In this document: positions 20,661 through 36,549 of the stretch, piece by piece
Layout: each line of letters starts with the position of its first letter
Position numbering within the stretch: the stretch's first letter is position 1
NCBI RefSeq assembly: GCF_021631985.1
Contig: NZ_CP070225.1
Location: 4,030,001-4,094,000 of the forward strand
Length of the DNA stretch: 64,000 nt
Origin: Sandaracinus amylolyticus
Lineage (GTDB): Bacteria; Myxococcota_A; Polyangia; Polyangiales; Sandaracinaceae
Direction: 5' to 3'
Translations under genes and position numbers: made by a program
The notes under the pieces: generated by a model
The model's input: the letters and a program-made list of their open reading frames with translations, nothing else
Databases searched by the model: none
What the model was told of the DNA's origin: nothing

Positions 20661-20772
20661 CGCCCTGGTTTCCCTCCGCGCCACTCTCGCGTGAGTTTCG
20701 AGCGCCGTAATCGTACTGCAGCCGTGTGGCCGGAACTCTTGCACACGAAAACATTGGTGTGAGCAGGTTTAA

Positions 20773-20798
20773 CCGGTGCCGGTATTGACGAGCACCGG
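20773..20798. promoter_or_regulatory. Inverted repeat CCGGTGC-N12-GCACCGG upstream of the terpenoid fusion gene
   Basis: Perfect 7-bp arms at 20773-20779 and 20792-20798, about 70 bases before ATG 20865, in the 204-base region between the divergent nuclease-like and fusion genes. A spacer of 12 places half-sites about two helical turns apart (centre to centre 19), as for a dimeric repressor or activator. The spacer contains TATTGACGA. Otherwise I see only the GAGAGGAG ribosome binding site in this gap. Confidence 0.3.
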
Positions 20799-20864
20799 GG
20801 CCGGCCAGTACTCGCGCACTCGGCCGTGGGGTGAGGGCCCGGGGCGCGGCCGAGAGGAGTCGTC

Positions 20865-23123
20865 ATGCTGGATCGACCGACCGATTGGCCTCTGCCCGGA
20901 CCGATCGACCTCGACGTTCACGACCTTCCACACGCGTCGTCGACGACCGAGTGGTGGTACGTGAACAGCCACCTCGAGGTCGCCGGGGGGCGACGACTGG
21001 CGCTCTTCGCGTCGTTCTTCCGCATCCTCAGCGGGGTCGACAAACAGACGAAGGAGCGCCAGCACGCGCACTCGCTCACCTGGGCGATCGTCGATCTCGA
21101 CCGCGGCGAGTACGTCGCGGACTCGCTCGTCGACAAGCAGGCGCCGCGCATCGGTCTCGAGAAGCTCGATCGCGGTCACGGCACCAGCGATCAGCGCCTC
21201 CGCCGCGCGATCCGCGAGATCCTGGAGAAGGGCGAGGTCCCGCTCCCCGATCGCATGTTCGAGGGCGACGTCACGGTCGCGACGCGCAAGCTCGAGCTCG
21301 ACTACGACGGCCAGCGCTTCGTGAAGAACGACGACGGCACCTACTCGCTGACGCTGCGCCATCCGGGCCGCGCGCTCGGCTGCGATCTGCAGTTCCGCCT
21401 CGACAAGCCGGTGGTGCGCCACGGCGACGACGGCGTGGTCCGCGGGCCGGCCGGCGAGGACATGTTCTATTACTTCTGCCCGCGCGCGACGGTCACGGGG
21501 TCGCTCGTGCTCGACGGGCAGCGCGTGCCGGTGGAGCGCGCGATCGGCTGGTACGACCACGAGTTCGGCGGGCATCGCGAGAGCGGGACGACGGACGCTC
21601 CCGCCGAGGGCGAGCCGGAGCCGGAGCGCGAGGTCGCGTGGAACTGGGTCTCGCTGCAGCTCGACAACGGCGTCGAGATCTCGGCGTACGACCTCTTCGA
21701 TCTCGCGCGTCAGGGCGAGAAGCGCATCGAAGGGCGCACGAAGGTCATCGATCGGGCTGGGCGCGTCGCGAGCCACGACGCGTTCACGCTCGAGGCGAGC
21801 GGACGCTTCGTCTCGACCCGCACGTTCAACGAGTACCCGACGTCGTGGCGGCTGCGTCAGCCCGAGGCGCGGCTGGATCTCGAGCTCGTCGCGCCGGTCG
21901 ACGATCAGGAGTTCATCACCGTGCTCTCGGAGCCGGCGTTCTGGGAAGGACGAGTCGAGGTCCGAGGGACCATCGCGGGCGAGGCGGTGCGCGGCGTCGG
22001 CTTCGTGGAGCGCAGCGGCTTCTCGCACACCGACACGCTCGACGAGTTCTTCTCCGCGGTGGGCACCGAGACGCGCCGCAGCGTGCACTCGATCATGCCG
22101 CTCGAGCCGAGCGTCGCGGAGATGCGCGAGCTGATCGCCTCGCGCGAGCGCGAGCAGTACATGCGCGGCGTCGACGTGCAGCTCGTCGCCGACTACCTGA
22201 CCAAGCCGATCCGCGAGATCGTCGATCGCGGCGGCAAGTCGTGGCGTTCGTACGCGGCGCTCGCGTGCTGCGACGTCGTCGGCGGCGACTCCCGACGCTA
22301 CGTGCGCTGGCTCGCGATGCCGGAGCTGATGCACACCGGATCGCTGATCGTCGACGACGTGCAGGATCGATCGGAGGTCCGGCGCGGCGGGCCGACATGC
22401 CACGCGGTGCACGGCGACGCGATCGCGATCAACTCGGGGACCGCGGCGTACTTCCTCGGGCAGAAGCTGCTGCGCGACGAGGCGATGTCGTCGGCGCGCC
22501 AGGTGCGCATCTACGACCTCTACTTCGAAGCCCTGCGAGCCGGGCACGGCGGTCAGGCGCTCGACCTCGCGGGGCTGCACCAGTTCGTGCCGGCAGCGGT
22601 CGAGTCGGGCGACAGCGCGGATCTCGAGGAGCGTGTGCTCGCGATCCATCGGCTGAAGACCGCGGCACCCGCGGCCGCGCTCGCGCGGATGGGCGCGCTC
22701 GCGGGCCAGGGCACCGAGGCGCAGATCGAGGCGGTCGGCGGGTTCTTCGAGGCGCTCGGCCTCGCGTTCCAGATCGTCGACGACGTGCTCAACCTCGAGG
22801 GCTTCCGCGGCGATCTGAAGACGCGCGGCGAGGACGTGATGCACGGCAAGGTCACCCTGCCGTTCGCGAAGGCGATGTCGCGGCTCGGGCGCGAGGAGCG
22901 CGTCGAGCTGTTCCGCATCGTCGCGTCGAAGCCGAGCGACACGACGGTGGTCGCGCGCGCGGTCGAGATGATGGCGAGCTCGGGCGCGATCGCGGCGTGC
23001 AAGCAGCAGGCGCGCGATCTCGTGGAGGACGCGTGGGCGCGCTTCGATCCGCTGGTCGAGGCGTCGCTCGTGAAGGTGATGCTCCGCGGCTTCGGCTGGT
23101 ACGTGCTGGAGCGCCATTACTGA
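20865..23123 (+). CDS. Fusion: CrtC/AttH-type lipocalin-like domain + polyprenyl diphosphate synthase, 752 aa
   Basis: GAGAGGAG precedes ATG 20865. Residues about 15-400 match the CrtC/AttH double-lipocalin family (carotenoid 1,2-hydratase, attH): EWWYVNSHLE at 29-38, FYYFCPRATVTGS near 205, GWYDHEFGG at 228-236. Residues about 425-745 are an all-helical isoprenyl diphosphate synthase with the first Asp-rich motif DDVQD (497-501), R-RG-PT-H after it, and the second motif QIVDDVLN (636-643) followed by GKVTLPFAKA. A Gly lies five residues before DDVQD where farnesyl synthases have an aromatic, suggesting a C20 or longer product. The fusion implies that the prenyl product is passed to the CrtC-like domain for hydration or cyclisation. 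Substrate and product are inferred. Confidence 0.88.
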   Translation: MLDRPTDWPLPGPIDLDVHDLPHASSTTEWWYVNSHLEVAGGRRLALFASFFRILSGVDKQTKERQHAHSLTWAIVDLDRGEYVADSLVDKQAPRIGLEKLDRGHGTSDQRLRRAIREILEKGEVPLPDRMFEGDVTVATRKLELDYDGQRFVKNDDGTYSLTLRHPGRALGCDLQFRLDKPVVRHGDDGVVRGPAGEDMFYYFCPRATVTGSLVLDGQRVPVERAIGWYDHEFGGHRESGTTDAPAEGEPEPEREVAWNWVSLQLDNGVEISAYDLFDLARQGEKRIEGRTKVIDRAGRVASHDAFTLEASGRFVSTRTFNEYPTSWRLRQPEARLDLELVAPVDDQEFITVLSEPAFWEGRVEVRGTIAGEAVRGVGFVERSGFSHTDTLDEFFSAVGTETRRSVHSIMPLEPSVAEMRELIASREREQYMRGVDVQLVADYLTKPIREIVDRGGKSWRSYAALACCDVVGGDSRRYVRWLAMPELMHTGSLIVDDVQDRSEVRRGGPTCHAVHGDAIAINSGTAAYFLGQKLLRDEAMSSARQVRIYDLYFEALRAGHGGQALDLAGLHQFVPAAVESGDSADLEERVLAIHRLKTAAPAAALARMGALAGQGTEAQIEAVGGFFEALGLAFQIVDDVLNLEGFRGDLKTRGEDVMHGKVTLPFAKAMSRLGREERVELFRIVASKPSDTTVVARAVEMMASSGAIAACKQQARDLVEDAWARFDPLVEASLVKVMLRGFGWYVLERHY

Positions 23124-23453
23124 GCTCGGTGATCCACCGGGAACGACGCGGCGCGATCCCGGGCCTGATCGTCCACCGCTCGCTGCGCTCCCTCCTCACG
23201 TACCGAAGTACGCTGCGGGGGGTGCTCGCGACCGGCGGCCGCTGAGGCCCGGTCTCCCGCCGCGCGATGGTCTTCGGCGATGCTGCGCGATCCGATCGCG
23301 GGCGACGTCATGACTCGAGAGGTCGGACGGCCATCCGTTCGGCCGCCCGGGGGACGGTTCGGGGGCTCCTGACGACAGGTCGGCCGAATCGCCGTGACCC
23401 GCATTGCACGGGGCGGGGCGTGCTTTCACGCCTTCGGGGTGAGCGGTGCGGCG

Positions 23454-24080
23454 ATGCAGGGCGCGGTGATCGACCGGGCGCGGTCGATCGACGACGTGGC
23501 GTGCGAAGCGGCGTGGGGCGTGGACGCGACGTGCGCGCTCTCGGGCACGGTGCGCGGGCTCCTGGTGCGGCGCTGGGCGGAGAACCTGCGGCGCCGCTTC
23601 GGCGCGGACGCCGCCGATCGGGTGAAGGCGCGGATGGGCGCGCTGGCGCTCGCGGACGATCCCCGCGACGACGCGTGGGTGCCGGTCGCAGCGCAGCTGC
23701 GAGCGACCGAGCTCGTCGTCGAGCTCTTCCTCGGCGGAGATCGCCGCGCGCTCGTGCCGGTCGTGATCGACGACGCGATGCGCAACGCGAGCACGATGTC
23801 GAAGCTCGCGCTGCGCACCGCAGGACCGGGCGCGCTGCTCTCGCGCACCGGGTCGCTGCACGGGCACGCATGCAGCGAAGGACGCGCGGAGGCGTCGGTG
23901 CAGGGCTCGCGGGCGCGGCTGCGCTACGTGGAGAGCCCGCTCTTCGAGCATCCGACGTGGCGCCTGCTCGCGATGACCGGCGCGTGCGGGCTCGTCGCGC
24001 TCTCGAGCCGCACGCTGGTGTCGATCGAGGCCCACGACGTCGGACCGCACGGCTTCGGCCTCGAGATCGCCTGGCGCTAA
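23454..24080 (+). CDS. Hypothetical protein, about 208 aa, DUF2378-like architecture
   Basis: ATG at 23454 is preferred; GTG at 23394 or 23439 would add low-complexity residues. The N-terminal part has GTVRGLLVRRWAENLRRRF, a helical middle with charged and small residues, and a beta-rich end (VESPLFEHPTWRLLAMTG and HGFGLEIAWR). The pattern resembles the myxobacterial DUF2378 (TIGR02265) proteins of unknown function, but only weakly. Its stop (TAA 24078-24080) overlaps the stop of the convergent vWA gene. The 330 bases before the start (23124-23453) hold no recognisable gene. Confidence 0.5.
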   Translation: MQGAVIDRARSIDDVACEAAWGVDATCALSGTVRGLLVRRWAENLRRRFGADAADRVKARMGALALADDPRDDAWVPVAAQLRATELVVELFLGGDRRALVPVVIDDAMRNASTMSKLALRTAGPGALLSRTGSLHGHACSEGRAEASVQGSRARLRYVESPLFEHPTWRLLAMTGACGLVALSSRTLVSIEAHDVGPHGFGLEIAWR

Positions 24081-31522: not shown

Positions 31523-33556
31523 TCAGATCTCCGGCTGTTCCGCGGGCTCGGGCGCGCTCCGCGCGACGCGCAGCGTGATCACCGCGAGCACGATCACCGC
31601 GAGGATCAGCACGGCCCACACGACGAGCGTCTCGCCGCCTGCGCGGTCGAAGAATCCCGGCCCGCGCCACGCGGGGTTGCGCGTCACCGCGCCGATGCTC
31701 GCGGCGCCGGGCTGCACCGCGAGCACGAGCTCTCTCGCGCGCTGGATCTCGTAGCGCGGCGCCGGCGCGTCGGGCGCGCCCGCGAGCACGCGGTAGTCGC
31801 CTGCGGGCGCGGTGACGAAGAGATCGAACGTCGGCACCCGCGCGATCGCCGACGTGATCGCGAGCGGCGCTTCGTCTCCGTCGTGCACGCGGAGCTCGAG
31901 CGAGCGCACACGCGTGGGCCGCGTCGCGACGATCAGCGGGCGCGCTTCTCCCGGTGTGCGCGAGAGCCACGTGCGCGCGATCTCGATCTCGGTGTCGTCC
32001 TCGCCGCGCCCGACGATCACCACCTCGCGCTCGACGAAGCCTGCGCTCGTGACGAGCTCGATCGCGCTCGTGGTGATCCGCTCGATCGGTGCGTCGAGCG
32101 CCACACGGCTCCACCCCTCGGCGAGCTCACCGCGATCGAGCGCACGGACCGAGAGCGCGACGTCGAGCGGCGCCGCAGTGTCACCGAGGAGGTAGCCCCG
32201 CTGCGCGCCATCGCCGTCGACGACGCGCAGATCCGCGAGATCGGTGCGCGCTGCCGAGAGCACGGCCGCAGGCAGCACCACGTGTGCGAGCCCGTCGCGC
32301 GTCTCGGGGATCGTGAGCGTCGCGACGTGCTCGAACGCGCGCTCGTCCGCGTGCGCGCCGGGCCGCATCGCGACCTCGAGCGCCGGGCCCGCCACGAAGC
32401 CCGGCTCGCGCTCGATCACGCCCAGCACCGCGGTGCCCGCGAGGCGTCGATCGAGCAGCTCCTCGCCGACGCGCGTGCCGAAGAGCCGCTGCAGATCGTA
32501 GCTCGGCGCGCGCACGCGCCCTCCGCCGAAGCGCAGCATCGCCGCGCGATCGCCCTCGAACACCAGCGACGGAGCGCGCACCATCGCGGTGATCTCGAGC
32601 CCCTCGAGCGGCGGGCTGTCGCCGTCGTCGATCGTGATCTCGAGCCGATCGCCGCGCGCCGGCGCGACGTCGAGCGATCGCTCGTCCGCGCCGGGGACAC
32701 CCGGCACGCGCAGCACGGTGCCGGTCGCGAGCGGCAGTCGTCCGTGCGCTGCGTCGATCGCGGTGACGTCGATCCGCCGCACGAAGCTCGCGGTGCGCGT
32801 GCCGATCACGATCCGTTCCGGCGTGATGCCCGCGGGGCGCGTCGCGATCACGATCGTGCGACCGCGATCGCGGCGCGTGCTGGCGATCGCGAGCGGCACG
32901 TCGAGCGTCGAGGCGCGCGCGTCGTCACGCACCGCGAGCCACACGAACGTGGGCTCGAGGTAGCCGTCCTCGCCCTCCAGCTCGACGCGCACCCGGCCTC
33001 GACCGAGGCCCGACGTCGGGATCTCGAGCTTCTCGCGCGCCGGGGCGCCGATCCGGAAGAACGCACCGCGCGCGACCTCGCGCTCGCCCTCCGGCGCTTG
33101 CGTCCACACCAGCCTCGCCCGCGTGACGAAGCGCGATCGCGCCGTCGACACGCGCAGCACCCAGGTCGCCCCGACCGGAGGCGCGCTCGGCGTCTCGATC
33201 GTCAGCACCTCGCGCACCTGCATCACACCGCGCACGCGCGTCGCTTCGCGCTCGGCATCGAGCACCGGCGCCGGCGCGTAGGGCGGCGCATCGTGCGGCA
33301 CCGGACGCTCGCCGCGATCGACGAGATAGGGCACCTCGTGGTCGTCGGGGTCGAGCACGCGCACGTCGGACAGATCGGCGCGCGACTCGACGAGCACCTC
33401 GGCGGGCAGCGCGAGCCGCACGAGCCCCGGAGGCGCGTCGATCGTCGCGCGATGCGGGAAGAGCCGCACGAGCGGCGGCGTGGCCTGCGCCGACGCGATG
33501 CTCGGTGCGATCACCAGCGCGGCCACGACGATCGAGAGCGAGCGGAGCGAGCTCAT
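31523..33556 (-). CDS. DUF3999-like exported protein, 677 aa
   Basis: ATG at 33556 overlaps the stop of the DUF2339 gene (ATGA). A signal peptide (LSIVVAALVIAPSIASA) is followed by about 600 residues of beta-rich repeats in two related halves (VRLALPAEVLVESRADLSDV near 40 and HVVLPAAVLSAARTDLADL near 420), and one C-terminal transmembrane helix (LVVWAVLILAVIVLAVITL). DUF3999 proteins occur next to DUF2339 membrane proteins in many Gram-negative genomes; the pair is presumed to act in the envelope, role unknown. The periplasmic portion would face outward. Confidence 0.85.
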   Translation of the reverse strand: MSSLRSLSIVVAALVIAPSIASAQATPPLVRLFPHRATIDAPPGLVRLALPAEVLVESRADLSDVRVLDPDDHEVPYLVDRGERPVPHDAPPYAPAPVLDAEREATRVRGVMQVREVLTIETPSAPPVGATWVLRVSTARSRFVTRARLVWTQAPEGEREVARGAFFRIGAPAREKLEIPTSGLGRGRVRVELEGEDGYLEPTFVWLAVRDDARASTLDVPLAIASTRRDRGRTIVIATRPAGITPERIVIGTRTASFVRRIDVTAIDAAHGRLPLATGTVLRVPGVPGADERSLDVAPARGDRLEITIDDGDSPPLEGLEITAMVRAPSLVFEGDRAAMLRFGGGRVRAPSYDLQRLFGTRVGEELLDRRLAGTAVLGVIEREPGFVAGPALEVAMRPGAHADERAFEHVATLTIPETRDGLAHVVLPAAVLSAARTDLADLRVVDGDGAQRGYLLGDTAAPLDVALSVRALDRGELAEGWSRVALDAPIERITTSAIELVTSAGFVEREVVIVGRGEDDTEIEIARTWLSRTPGEARPLIVATRPTRVRSLELRVHDGDEAPLAITSAIARVPTFDLFVTAPAGDYRVLAGAPDAPAPRYEIQRARELVLAVQPGAASIGAVTRNPAWRGPGFFDRAGGETLVVWAVLILAVIVLAVITLRVARSAPEPAEQPEI

Positions 33557-36549
33557 GCGGCCTCCGGTGCAGGCTTGCGGAACACGAAGCGCTGGTACGC
33601 GAGCGACACGAGGATCAGCGACACCGCGAGCCCCGAGAGCGCGGCGACGCGATAGAGATCGCGCAGGTGCGAGAGGTCGTAGAGGAAGACCTTCGCGCAC
33701 GTGATCACGAGCAGGCCCAGGCTCGTCGCGCGCAGCCCGGTGCTGCCGCGCGCCATGCCGAGCGCGAGGAGCACGAGCGCGTAGACCGCCCACGAGATCG
33801 ACATCGCGAGATCGCGCGCCGGCATCCGCTCCATCGGGATCGTCAGCGCGGGCCCGGTCGCGAACCAGTCGATGATCGTGAGGTTGAGCCACACGAACAC
33901 GACGACGAGCCCGGCCGCGAAGAGCGTCGGCGCGAGCAGCGCGCCCTCTGGATAGAGCCCTCGCTCCCACGCGCGACGGCGCGCGACCTCGAGATCCGCG
34001 AGCGCGCGGCTGCCCACGAAGAGCGCGAGCGCGGGCACGAGGTACGTGTACGAGAGCCAGTTGACGATCCGCAGCTCGCCGCGCGGGTAGTAGACGAGCA
34101 CGTCGGGGTTCAGCACCAGACGCACCGTCACCGCGGCGAAGAGCGCCATCGCGAGGTAGCGCACGCCCGCGTGATCGAAGCGACGATCGAGCACGAGCAG
34201 CGCGGCGGCCTCGAGCGCCCAGCCGATCGTCCACCACTCGCGATCGAGCTGCAGCGGGATCGCGAGCGTCACGAACCCGGCCGCGACCGCGATGGGCCAC
34301 ACCAGCGCGACGCGACGCACCGCGCCGTCGAGGCTGCGCGACCGCGCGATCTGCGCGACCGCGAGCGAGAGCAGCGCACAGAGGATCGCGAGCGCACCGA
34401 CGAAACGATCGCCGAGCACCGCGAGCCAGAGGTGACGCAACGAGAGGAACGAGAGCGGCGCGACGAGCGCGGCCGCGCGCCAGCCCCACTCGGTGCGCGC
34501 GAGCCGCGGGGCGAGCGAGGGCCACGCGGCGAGCACGAGCGTGGATCCGGCGAGCAGCGCGAGCCGCTGCGCGTCGATCTCCGCGGGCGCACCGGGGAGC
34601 GCGAAGCGCGCCTGCACGAGCGCGGTCACGACGATCGCTGCCACCGCGATCCACGCACCGCCCTCGCGCGACGCGGCGAAGAGCGCGAGCAGCGCGCACA
34701 CCAGCGACGCGCCGAGGCCTGCGACCGGCGGCACGCCCGGCGCGAGCGCGAGCATCATCCCGCCGAAGAGCGCCGCGACCGCCGCCGCGGCATCGAGCGC
34801 GCGCCGCGAGGTCGGCGTCGCGAGCGACGCGGCGATCTGGAAGGGCACCGCCTGGAGCGGGATCAGCGCTGCGACGAGCGCAGGCGAGGCAGCATCGCGC
34901 GCCGCGTGCGCGAGCGCGTAGGTCGCGATCGGCGCGAGGACCGCCGCGGGCAGCGCGAGCGCCGCACGCCCGGGCAGACACGATGCACGCAGCGCGAGCG
35001 CGAGCAGCACGAGCGCGGCGACCGCGAGGGGCACCCACGCCGGATCCCGCGAGAACGCGACCATCGCGATCGTCGCGAGCGGCGCGGTCGAGGCCAGCGA
35101 CGACGCCGCGCCGAGCTCGAAGCGTGCGCCGCGATCGAGCTCCGCCGACACGTGGAACACCAGCGCGATGACGAGCGCGATCGCGAGCGGCGCGGAGGCG
35201 TCCCCGATCGACGCGAGCGGCCACGAGAGCATGCCGACCGACCACACGCCCACCGCCGCTGCGGACGCGAAGAGCGCGATCCACGGCAGCCCGTCGCGGC
35301 GCGCGACGAACGCGCTGCCGATCGCGAGCACCACGAGGAGCGCCGCGGTCGCGCCGAGCGCGAGCGGCGCGCTCGAGAGGCGAGCGAACGCGAGAACGAG
35401 CAGGAACGGATGGAGCACCGCGCCCGCGCGGAGCAGCACGGTCCACCCATCGGACGTCGCGTCCCCCTCGCGTCGGGGAGCGGGCGCTAGCACGAAGAGC
35501 GCGGCGAACGCGACGACGATCGCCACGCCGACGAGCACCGTCGCATCACCCATCGAAGCGAAGACCCAGAGCAGCTGATAGAGCGCGGTCGCGACGAACG
35601 AGAGCAGCGCGAGCCCCGGCCAGCGCTTGCGATACGCGAGCACGAGCAAGCCCGCGTCGAGCACCAGCAGGTACGCGAAGAGCGGGATGGGTCGATCGGC
35701 GCCGGTCGAGAGCGCGAGCGGCGTGAGGAACCCGCCGGAGAGACCGAGCAGTGCGATCGGGAGCGAGCTGCGTCGCGCCGAGAGCACCACGCAAGCGACG
35801 GTGACCGCGACCATGAGCGCGCCCGAGATGCCGAGCGGCACGAGCTCGTAGAGCGCGCTCGCGGCCCACGACGCGAGATAGAGGATCGCGACGCCCGCGC
35901 CCGCGATCCATCCGGAGAGCGCAGGGAAGCGCGTGCGCAGCGGCCACTCCGAGGCGACGACGCACGCGAGCCCGACCAGCCCCCCGAGCGCGACGCGGAG
36001 CGCGGGCGTGATCCACCCGTGCTCGATCGAGTACTGGAAGAGCGAGAGCCCCGCGATGACGAGCACGATCGCGCCCGCGGCCGCCGCACCACGCACGCCG
36101 ATCCAGCGCTCCCACGCGCCGGTCGAGTCGCTCGGAGCCGGCGGAGGCGGAGGCGGAGGCGGAGCAGGCGGGGGCGGTGCGGGCGGGCTCGCACCGGAGG
36201 GCGGCGCCACGTCGCTCTCGGTCGTCTCAGCCGCAGGAGCCGGCGCGACGGGCTCGGTCTCGGCTTCGGTCTCGCTCTCGGCCGCAGTCTCGGACTGCTC
36301 CACGACCGTCTCGACGCGCGGCGTCATCACGACCGCCGCGCCGTCCCACCGCGACATCCGAGTCAGGAGCGTGGTGTGTTCACCACGCAGTCGAACCACT
36401 TCGGCTTCGAGCTCGGCGACACGCCGCGCGAGCTCGTGGTCCGGTTTCGGTCGCGCGATCGCGACGATCCCAGCGATGGCTGCGAGCACGAGGGCCACCG
36501 GCCCTCCCAAGCACAACGCCATCGCGAACAGAGTCTCGAGCTCCTGCAT
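33553..36549 (-). CDS. DUF2339 polytopic membrane protein, 998 aa
   Basis: ATG at 36549 has GGGAGG upstream. One N-terminal hydrophobic helix (8-30) is followed by a coiled coil (about 38-65), a Glu/Pro-rich linker with a polyproline tract (about 120-140), WERWIGVRGAAAAGAIVLV, and then some 25 or more hydrophobic helices to the end. This is the standard DUF2339 layout. Function is not established for the family. It is co-transcribed with the DUF3999 gene through an ATGA overlap. Confidence 0.9.
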   Translation of the reverse strand: MQELETLFAMALCLGGPVALVLAAIAGIVAIARPKPDHELARRVAELEAEVVRLRGEHTTLLTRMSRWDGAAVVMTPRVETVVEQSETAAESETEAETEPVAPAPAAETTESDVAPPSGASPPAPPPPAPPPPPPPPAPSDSTGAWERWIGVRGAAAAGAIVLVIAGLSLFQYSIEHGWITPALRVALGGLVGLACVVASEWPLRTRFPALSGWIAGAGVAILYLASWAASALYELVPLGISGALMVAVTVACVVLSARRSSLPIALLGLSGGFLTPLALSTGADRPIPLFAYLLVLDAGLLVLAYRKRWPGLALLSFVATALYQLLWVFASMGDATVLVGVAIVVAFAALFVLAPAPRREGDATSDGWTVLLRAGAVLHPFLLVLAFARLSSAPLALGATAALLVVLAIGSAFVARRDGLPWIALFASAAAVGVWSVGMLSWPLASIGDASAPLAIALVIALVFHVSAELDRGARFELGAASSLASTAPLATIAMVAFSRDPAWVPLAVAALVLLALALRASCLPGRAALALPAAVLAPIATYALAHAARDAASPALVAALIPLQAVPFQIAASLATPTSRRALDAAAAVAALFGGMMLALAPGVPPVAGLGASLVCALLALFAASREGGAWIAVAAIVVTALVQARFALPGAPAEIDAQRLALLAGSTLVLAAWPSLAPRLARTEWGWRAAALVAPLSFLSLRHLWLAVLGDRFVGALAILCALLSLAVAQIARSRSLDGAVRRVALVWPIAVAAGFVTLAIPLQLDREWWTIGWALEAAALLVLDRRFDHAGVRYLAMALFAAVTVRLVLNPDVLVYYPRGELRIVNWLSYTYLVPALALFVGSRALADLEVARRRAWERGLYPEGALLAPTLFAAGLVVVFVWLNLTIIDWFATGPALTIPMERMPARDLAMSISWAVYALVLLALGMARGSTGLRATSLGLLVITCAKVFLYDLSHLRDLYRVAALSGLAVSLILVSLAYQRFVFRKPAPEAA

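Follow-up and report, generated by a model that had tools for sequence, protein, structure and literature searches.

Domain architecture and integrity of the fusion gene

The locus, from a soil bacterium, is built around a gene at 20865..23123 on the plus strand of the window (the whole stretch of 64,000 nucleotides that was analysed), the single intact frame of which runs from ATG to TGA without an internal stop and encodes a 752-aa protein joining a CrtC/AttH-type double lipocalin to a trans-polyprenyl diphosphate synthase. A Pfam scan of the protein places three domains above the curated cut-off and recognises no further family: the CrtC N-terminal lipocalin domain (PF07143; residues 28-235, 20946..21569; E 2.5e-18; 67.7 bits against a cut-off of 22.5), Lipocalin_9 (PF17186; residues 255-385, 21627..22019; E 1.7e-20; 73.9 against 26.2 bits) and the polyprenyl synthetase domain polyprenyl_synt (PF00348; residues 444-703, 22194..22973; E 7.2e-48), all on the plus strand. 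The sequence-only reading, which had proposed this pairing on a single polypeptide with two complete sets of active-site motifs, is confirmed by the profile search of both halves, with EWWYVNS, GWYDHEFGG, DDVQD and QIVDDVLN lying at residues 29-35, 228-236, 497-501 and 636-643, respectively. With 132.7 bits against a curated cut-off of 450, the protein is not a member of the Family 2 encapsulin cargo polyprenyl transferases (NF041169). Within its genome (10.96 Mb, two contigs), profile search finds in the fusion protein the sole CrtC (PF07143) and the sole Lipocalin_9 match, and four other prenyltransferase matches besides it.

A frame error near 22100 that artificially joins two genes can be excluded, since the fusion is crossed in full and without a stop by 66 of the 75 ORFs that match, among them that of the window; the remaining nine, cut by contig ends or matching a part only, were set aside. 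Gene calls in GC-rich genomes followed a simple GC-by-codon-position rule. An antisense frame of 782 aa at 20769-23117 on the minus strand was rejected as a real gene because the homologues belong to the plus frame.

Upstream of the fusion, a 7-bp inverted repeat (CCGGTGC at 20773..20779, GCACCGG at 20792..20798) had been put forward as a control element. The repeat, read from the sequence and not listed by a repeat finder set to a minimum length of 8, exists, yet G181, the sister species, has a different second arm; as the repeat is not conserved there, a control role is without support, a regulatory repeat was rejected, and 20773-20798 probably reflects chance. A search for a sigma-70-type promoter upstream of the fusion found none. 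Elsewhere in the window, a stretch of about 2.5 kb (33500-36000) has a strong AT skew (0.31-0.53), with a G+C content that is normal.

Predicted structure and relation to known proteins

The full-length AlphaFold model (pLDDT 90.8, pTM 0.89) has the loop 240-253 as its sole segment below pLDDT 50. Modelled alone, the N-half (pLDDT 92.3) is predicted to form a double lipocalin beta-barrel, the best matches of which are AttH (2ich; Z 36.3, 3.3 A over 313 residues) and kievitone hydratase (7a0t; Z 32.7, 2.8 A over 297), followed by the Diels-Alderases CghA, Fsa2 and Phm7 (Z 23-25) and 25-phosphosteroid lyase (Z 22.8), with unrelated folds at Z 9.3 or less. The C-half is predicted to adopt the all-helical trans-prenyltransferase fold (GGPP synthase 1wy0; Z 37.1, 2.3 A over 326). 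The model thus agrees with a trans-prenyltransferase joined to a double-barrel lipocalin nearest to AttH and kievitone hydratase.

AttH from Nitrosomonas europaea (NE1406) has EWWYV, WLDREW and WDW at the same places as the fusion, but is stand-alone, and we know of no reaction that it catalyses. Five stand-alone cyanobacterial CrtC/AttH proteins (L121-L125) were also collected, several of them, as judged by eye, beside ABC-transporter-like permease and ATPase genes, and none of the five lies near a prenyltransferase in the stretches fetched. Kievitone hydratase from Nectria haematococca (7a0q/7a0t), which has WYDRQW and WTW at corresponding places and a substrate carrying a prenyl double bond, is in contrast to the fusion a stand-alone, secreted protein that hydrates prenylated isoflavonoids, and is 17-18% identical over aligned residues. 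The carotenoid 1,2-hydratase CrtC (PF07143) shares the Pfam family, the Asp acid and the WxW cage; it differs in acting on lycopene and having no fused prenyltransferase. Trans-polyprenyl diphosphate synthases (PF00348) share with the fusion the fold, both Asp-rich motifs and the IPP-site residues, whereas DDVLN as second motif and the lipocalin half set the fusion apart.

Bifunctional terpene synthases such as PaFS, in which a cyclase is combined with a prenyltransferase, provide a precedent in layout: as in PvCPS, one polypeptide carries a C-terminal prenyltransferase with a modifying half before it. In these enzymes, however, the modifying half is a helical cyclase domain of class I or II, and such a domain is absent beside the prenyltransferase of the fusion, the N-half of which is predicted as a beta-barrel. 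The suggestion that MstE represents a CrtC-like cyclase was not borne out, as no lipocalin-fold cyclase was found here and MstE is classed as a helical class II cyclase with the helical beta-domain fold; its absence among the structures listed for the N-half model says nothing about its own fold.

Candidate active sites of the two halves

In the prenyltransferase half, D497, D498 and D501 of the first Asp-rich motif DDVQD (residues 497-501, 22353..22367) and D639 and D640 of the second, DDVLN (residues 639-643, 22779..22793), are present in 73 of 73 sequences. The same holds for R461, H490 and R507 of the IPP site, with K458 kept in 70. In the second motif, Asn takes the place of the third Asp in the fusion family (N643 in 69/73, D in three, S in one). 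Small residues precede the first motif (G492 in 72/73, S493 in 70/73), and according to established chain-length rules small residues at -5 and -4 go along with products of C20 or longer. Since Gly at -5 and Ser at -4 leave the pocket open, the product of the C-half is probably C20 or longer; the earlier suggestion that the Gly favours such a product holds as far as the conserved small residues are concerned, the chain length being what we infer from them.

In the lipocalin half, the proposed catalytic acid D231 (GWYDHEFG; 21555..21557), each residue of E29-W30-W31 (20949..20957) and W259-N-W261 (21639..21647) are invariant in 44 of the 44 core members (alignment A2). By sequence alignment, D231 corresponds to the Asp of WLDREW in AttH and of WYDRQW in kievitone hydratase, and W259xW261 to WDW and WTW of these proteins. 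For Rubrivivax CrtC (RgCrtC), the available part of PMC12402844 gives D268 as the acid and W110, W283 and W285 as the carbocation cage; the proposed equivalence of D231, W259 and W261 to D268, W283 and W285 builds on the alignment to AttH and kievitone hydratase, with the roles taken from that source. By inference and not by alignment to the RgCrtC sequence, EWW at 29-31 is the likely counterpart of the W110 region of the aromatic cage. As the accessible text of PMC4717167 describes H239, W241, Y266 and D268 as each essential in RgCrtC, it should be noted that the first three, not evidently kept in the fusion, fall on Y202, F204 and W229 by spacing from the Asp and not by alignment, the residue two before the acid being W229 and not Tyr.

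With distant members included, D231 is found in 70/73 sequences, the exceptions being Streptomyces canus (Glu), G426 (without Asp) and G117. The N-half of G117, like that of N. stercoris, is not recognised by Pfam. In a pair of sequences (L016/L017, from G151 and G152) D231 is kept and both WxW tryptophans and the EWW motif are lost, the prenyltransferase half being about 57% identical to that of the window; a changed reaction is possible for this subgroup. Two genes (L092:8436-10412, minus strand, and L082:7359-9305) combine a prenyltransferase half with an N-half unrecognised by Pfam; each is followed by an FMO-like monooxygenase gene, and they are possibly a second fusion type.

Distribution, inheritance and selection

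Of 377 Myxococcota genomes, 44 match a profile built from 44 sequences (E <= 1e-60), in some cases with just a fragment at the end of a contig, and comparison of the window protein with genome contigs gave 58 loci. Within the order, 16 of the 183 genomes searched gave a match. Beyond Myxococcota, where it is found in many members, the fusion or its relatives extend to Cyanobacteriota, Bacteroidota and Actinomycetota: Spirosoma, the cyanobacteria Iningainema and Cyanosarcina, and Saprospiraceae encode it at about 48-53% identity, and distant relatives reside on plasmids of Tolypothrix (34%) and Streptomyces canus (32%). Plasmid records name such proteins just "polyprenyl synthetase family protein", and the phage records searched gave prenyltransferase matches only, without the fusion. 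In Cytophagales no copy was detected outside Spirosoma, the one positive genome among the 291 of the order being the query's own. As both Spirosoma copies group with the cyanobacterial ones in the tree (support 99) and are rare in their order, acquisition by transfer is suggested. One copy on a contig labelled Klebsiella pneumoniae (L043) groups with the myxobacterial ones; the contig is probably a mislabelled metagenome bin.

Both halves are under purifying selection in eight of eight close pairs, mostly stricter on the prenyltransferase half: dN/dS is 0.03-0.30 for the whole gene, 0.04-0.34 for the lipocalin half and 0.02-0.24 for the prenyltransferase half, as obtained with a home-made Nei-Gojobori count in which dS exceeds 1 in some pairs. 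Pairwise identities of the two halves correlate with r = 0.84 (68 sequences), which fits a fusion inherited as a unit, although shared ancestry alone would give the same. The N-half diverges faster than the C-half, with a median identity of 47% versus 63%. Alignment A1 omits 11 of the 66 kept ORFs, mostly near-duplicates; the table of 73 rows adds eight distant members, among them a longer G113 sequence that replaces L018.

Neighbouring genes and five-domain relatives

Downstream of the fusion, a gene at 23394..24080 on the plus strand encodes a small protein of 228 aa without a Pfam or NCBIfam match; in 21 of 59 loci the fusion has a member of its family as neighbour. Members of this family of 205-228 aa (the window and 20 loci) share RG..L..W and F.(H/N)P.W.LLQ-like motifs, and one has a weak DUF2378 match (E 0.028). 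A membrane-protein-like family of about 605 aa adjoins the fusion in 15/59 loci. These families were built by single linkage, with a doubtful ORF (L024|43) left out of one alignment; for the majority of the myxobacterial loci, analysis of the flanks consisted in this grouping into families.

Among the flanking genes examined in the window no tailoring genes were recognised. In contrast to this copy, several relatives have such neighbours. Two Spirosoma loci continue beyond the fusion, in the same orientation, with an LMF1-like gene, a methyltransferase gene of FkbM type (shortened in one strain), an MGDG-synthase-like glycosyltransferase and two P450-type genes; the FkbM and second P450 genes were named by eye from translations, and one of the two P450s was profile-scanned. 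An FkbM methyltransferase and a UDP-glycosyltransferase (GT1) belong to the Cyanosarcina locus, a GT28-type glycosyltransferase to that of Iningainema, and the myxobacterial G395 locus holds an ecdysteroid-kinase-like gene, a P450, a GDP-mannose 4,6-dehydratase, an epimerase, judged by eye as GDP-fucose synthase-like, and a glycosyltransferase.

Two distant relatives carry tailoring domains within the same frame. A 1509-aa protein on a plasmid of Tolypothrix sp. PCC 7601 (L080:9646-14172) and a 1520-aa frame of the myxobacterial genome G113 (L091:7042-11601) both present Sulfotransfer_3, a GT1/28-type glycosyltransferase, CrtC, Lipocalin_9 and polyprenyl_synt, in that order, and are colinear with 36% identity over their length, though from different phyla (Cyanobacteriota and Myxococcota). 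The Tolypothrix gene sits, as read by eye, between ABC-exporter genes.

Proposed function and alternatives

We regard it as slightly better than an even bet (probability about 0.5) that the protein is a bifunctional isoprenoid enzyme, in which a polyprenyl diphosphate produced by the C-half is hydrated at its omega end by the N-half. The basis is formed by the domains, the predicted fold, the conserved motifs, purifying selection, and the tailoring genes and tailoring domains of relatives, and from it we infer the catalytic steps, the chain length, hydration over cyclisation and the use of the C-half product by the N-half. In this scheme, the C-half would couple isopentenyl diphosphate to an allylic diphosphate, giving a polyprenyl diphosphate of probably C20 or longer, the far (omega) end of which would be bound by the double lipocalin. 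D231 would protonate the terminal trisubstituted double bond, the tryptophan cage of W30/W31, W259 and W261 would hold the tertiary cation, and water would capture it to give a tertiary alcohol. In the relatives, the hydroxylated or further oxidised product would then be glycosylated, methylated or sulfated, and the pathway may end in a decorated terpenoid, either a secondary metabolite or a glycolipid. That one polypeptide may make and modify a prenyl diphosphate, as first proposed from the sequence, is thereby supported by domains, conserved motifs and predicted structure.

Omega-end hydration is favoured because a polyene synthase is joined to a domain whose characterised same-motif relatives hydrate terminal prenyl groups, and because glycosyltransferase, sulfotransferase and methyltransferase partners need a hydroxyl, which hydration supplies. 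Against it stand the lack of recognised tailoring genes among the flanking genes examined for the window copy, the loss of parts of the site in L016/L017, G426 and S. canus, the unrecognisable N-half of N. stercoris and G117, the Diels-Alder and phosphate-elimination chemistry that the same fold also performs, and AttH, which as the structurally nearest protein has no reaction known to us and figures as 'putative' in the structure listing. The available part of PMC5805349 describes the hydration of a prenyl double bond by kievitone hydratase; RgCrtC, on the other hand, also needs H239, W241 and Y266 according to the excerpt of PMC4717167, and two residues before the acid the fusion has W229 and not Tyr.

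Cyclisation, which starts from the same protonation, is ranked second to hydration. The lipocalin half would in this case be a protonation-initiated cyclase, with D231 starting a class II-type cascade, whose cyclic terpenyl diphosphate product (drimane/labdane-like or larger) would be decorated by P450s, glycosyltransferases and methyltransferases. The same acid and aromatic cage would yield the tertiary cation, the polyene substrate is supplied in cis, and the two P450s with the fusion in Spirosoma and the one in G395 are as expected for polycyclic terpenoids. However, no terpene cyclase of lipocalin fold is among the structures and papers found, the known same-motif members are hydratases and the Pfam scan gives no cyclase domain of class I or II, which leaves this alternative unlikely. 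We hold it to be quite unlikely that the lipocalin half catalyses terpene cyclisation with a fold not known for this reaction and that the five-domain proteins take C5 units all the way to a sulfated terpenoid glycoside within one polypeptide.

The lipocalin half might also act on a downstream intermediate instead of the nascent chain, as a lyase or isomerase in the manner of 25-phosphosteroid lyase, or as a pericyclase. The lyase and the Diels-Alderases share the fold, and the ecdysteroid-kinase-like gene of the G395 cluster recalls the steroid pathway, in which a kinase is paired with 25-phosphosteroid lyase (PMC11061730, available part). As the kinase occurs in one cluster only and these folds are clearly more distant (Z 23-25) than AttH and kievitone hydratase (Z 33-36), such a role strikes us as very unlikely.

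A carotenoid enzyme, that is a GGPP synthase fused to a carotenoid 1,2-hydratase as two distant steps of one pathway, seems highly improbable, although GDP-fucose and glycosyltransferase genes, as beside the G395 copy, are linked with carotenoid fucosides. This reading is weakened because G113, which has the sulfotransferase-glycosyltransferase form and a genome 98% complete, is without a match to SQS_PSY (phytoene/squalene synthase), and because the two SQS_PSY places of the window's genome are about 3.8 and 4.2 Mb off the fusion, one with its own prenyltransferase match 16 kb away; none of the six genomes searched has an SQS_PSY match beside the fusion. In its favour, CrtC hydrates carotenoids (PMC4717167), and the colonies of S. 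defensii are described as yellowish-orange in the accessible text of PMC9306752, which counts if the host is, as we presume, S. defensii. A non-enzymatic carrier or chaperone extracting the long prenyl product from the synthase, in line with the faster evolution of the N-half and the loss of acid or cage in some members, is hardly probable, as the invariance of both in the 44 core members goes beyond a carrier's need.

Novelty and biological meaning

Prenyltransferase-cyclase fusions are a known route to terpenoids, whereas a fusion to a lipocalin-type acid catalyst is undescribed in the open-access literature searched; no report of a CrtC/lipocalin and polyprenyl synthetase fusion was found in open-access full texts, with a paper elsewhere being possible, and CrtC has no occurrence in the accessible part of the sandacrabin study, which deals with the probable host species. 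Cumulatively, the fusion and its relatives with tailoring domains point to an uncharacterised kind of terpenoid-making machine. The fusion, conserved across many Myxococcota and reaching Cyanobacteriota, Bacteroidota and Actinomycetota, suggests a substrate route for AttH-type proteins and, as judged from motifs and model, offers a candidate hydratase whose substrate chain may be produced by the same polypeptide. In the relatives bearing sulfotransferase and glycosyltransferase domains, one protein would combine chain building with modification of the far end, glycosylation and sulfation.
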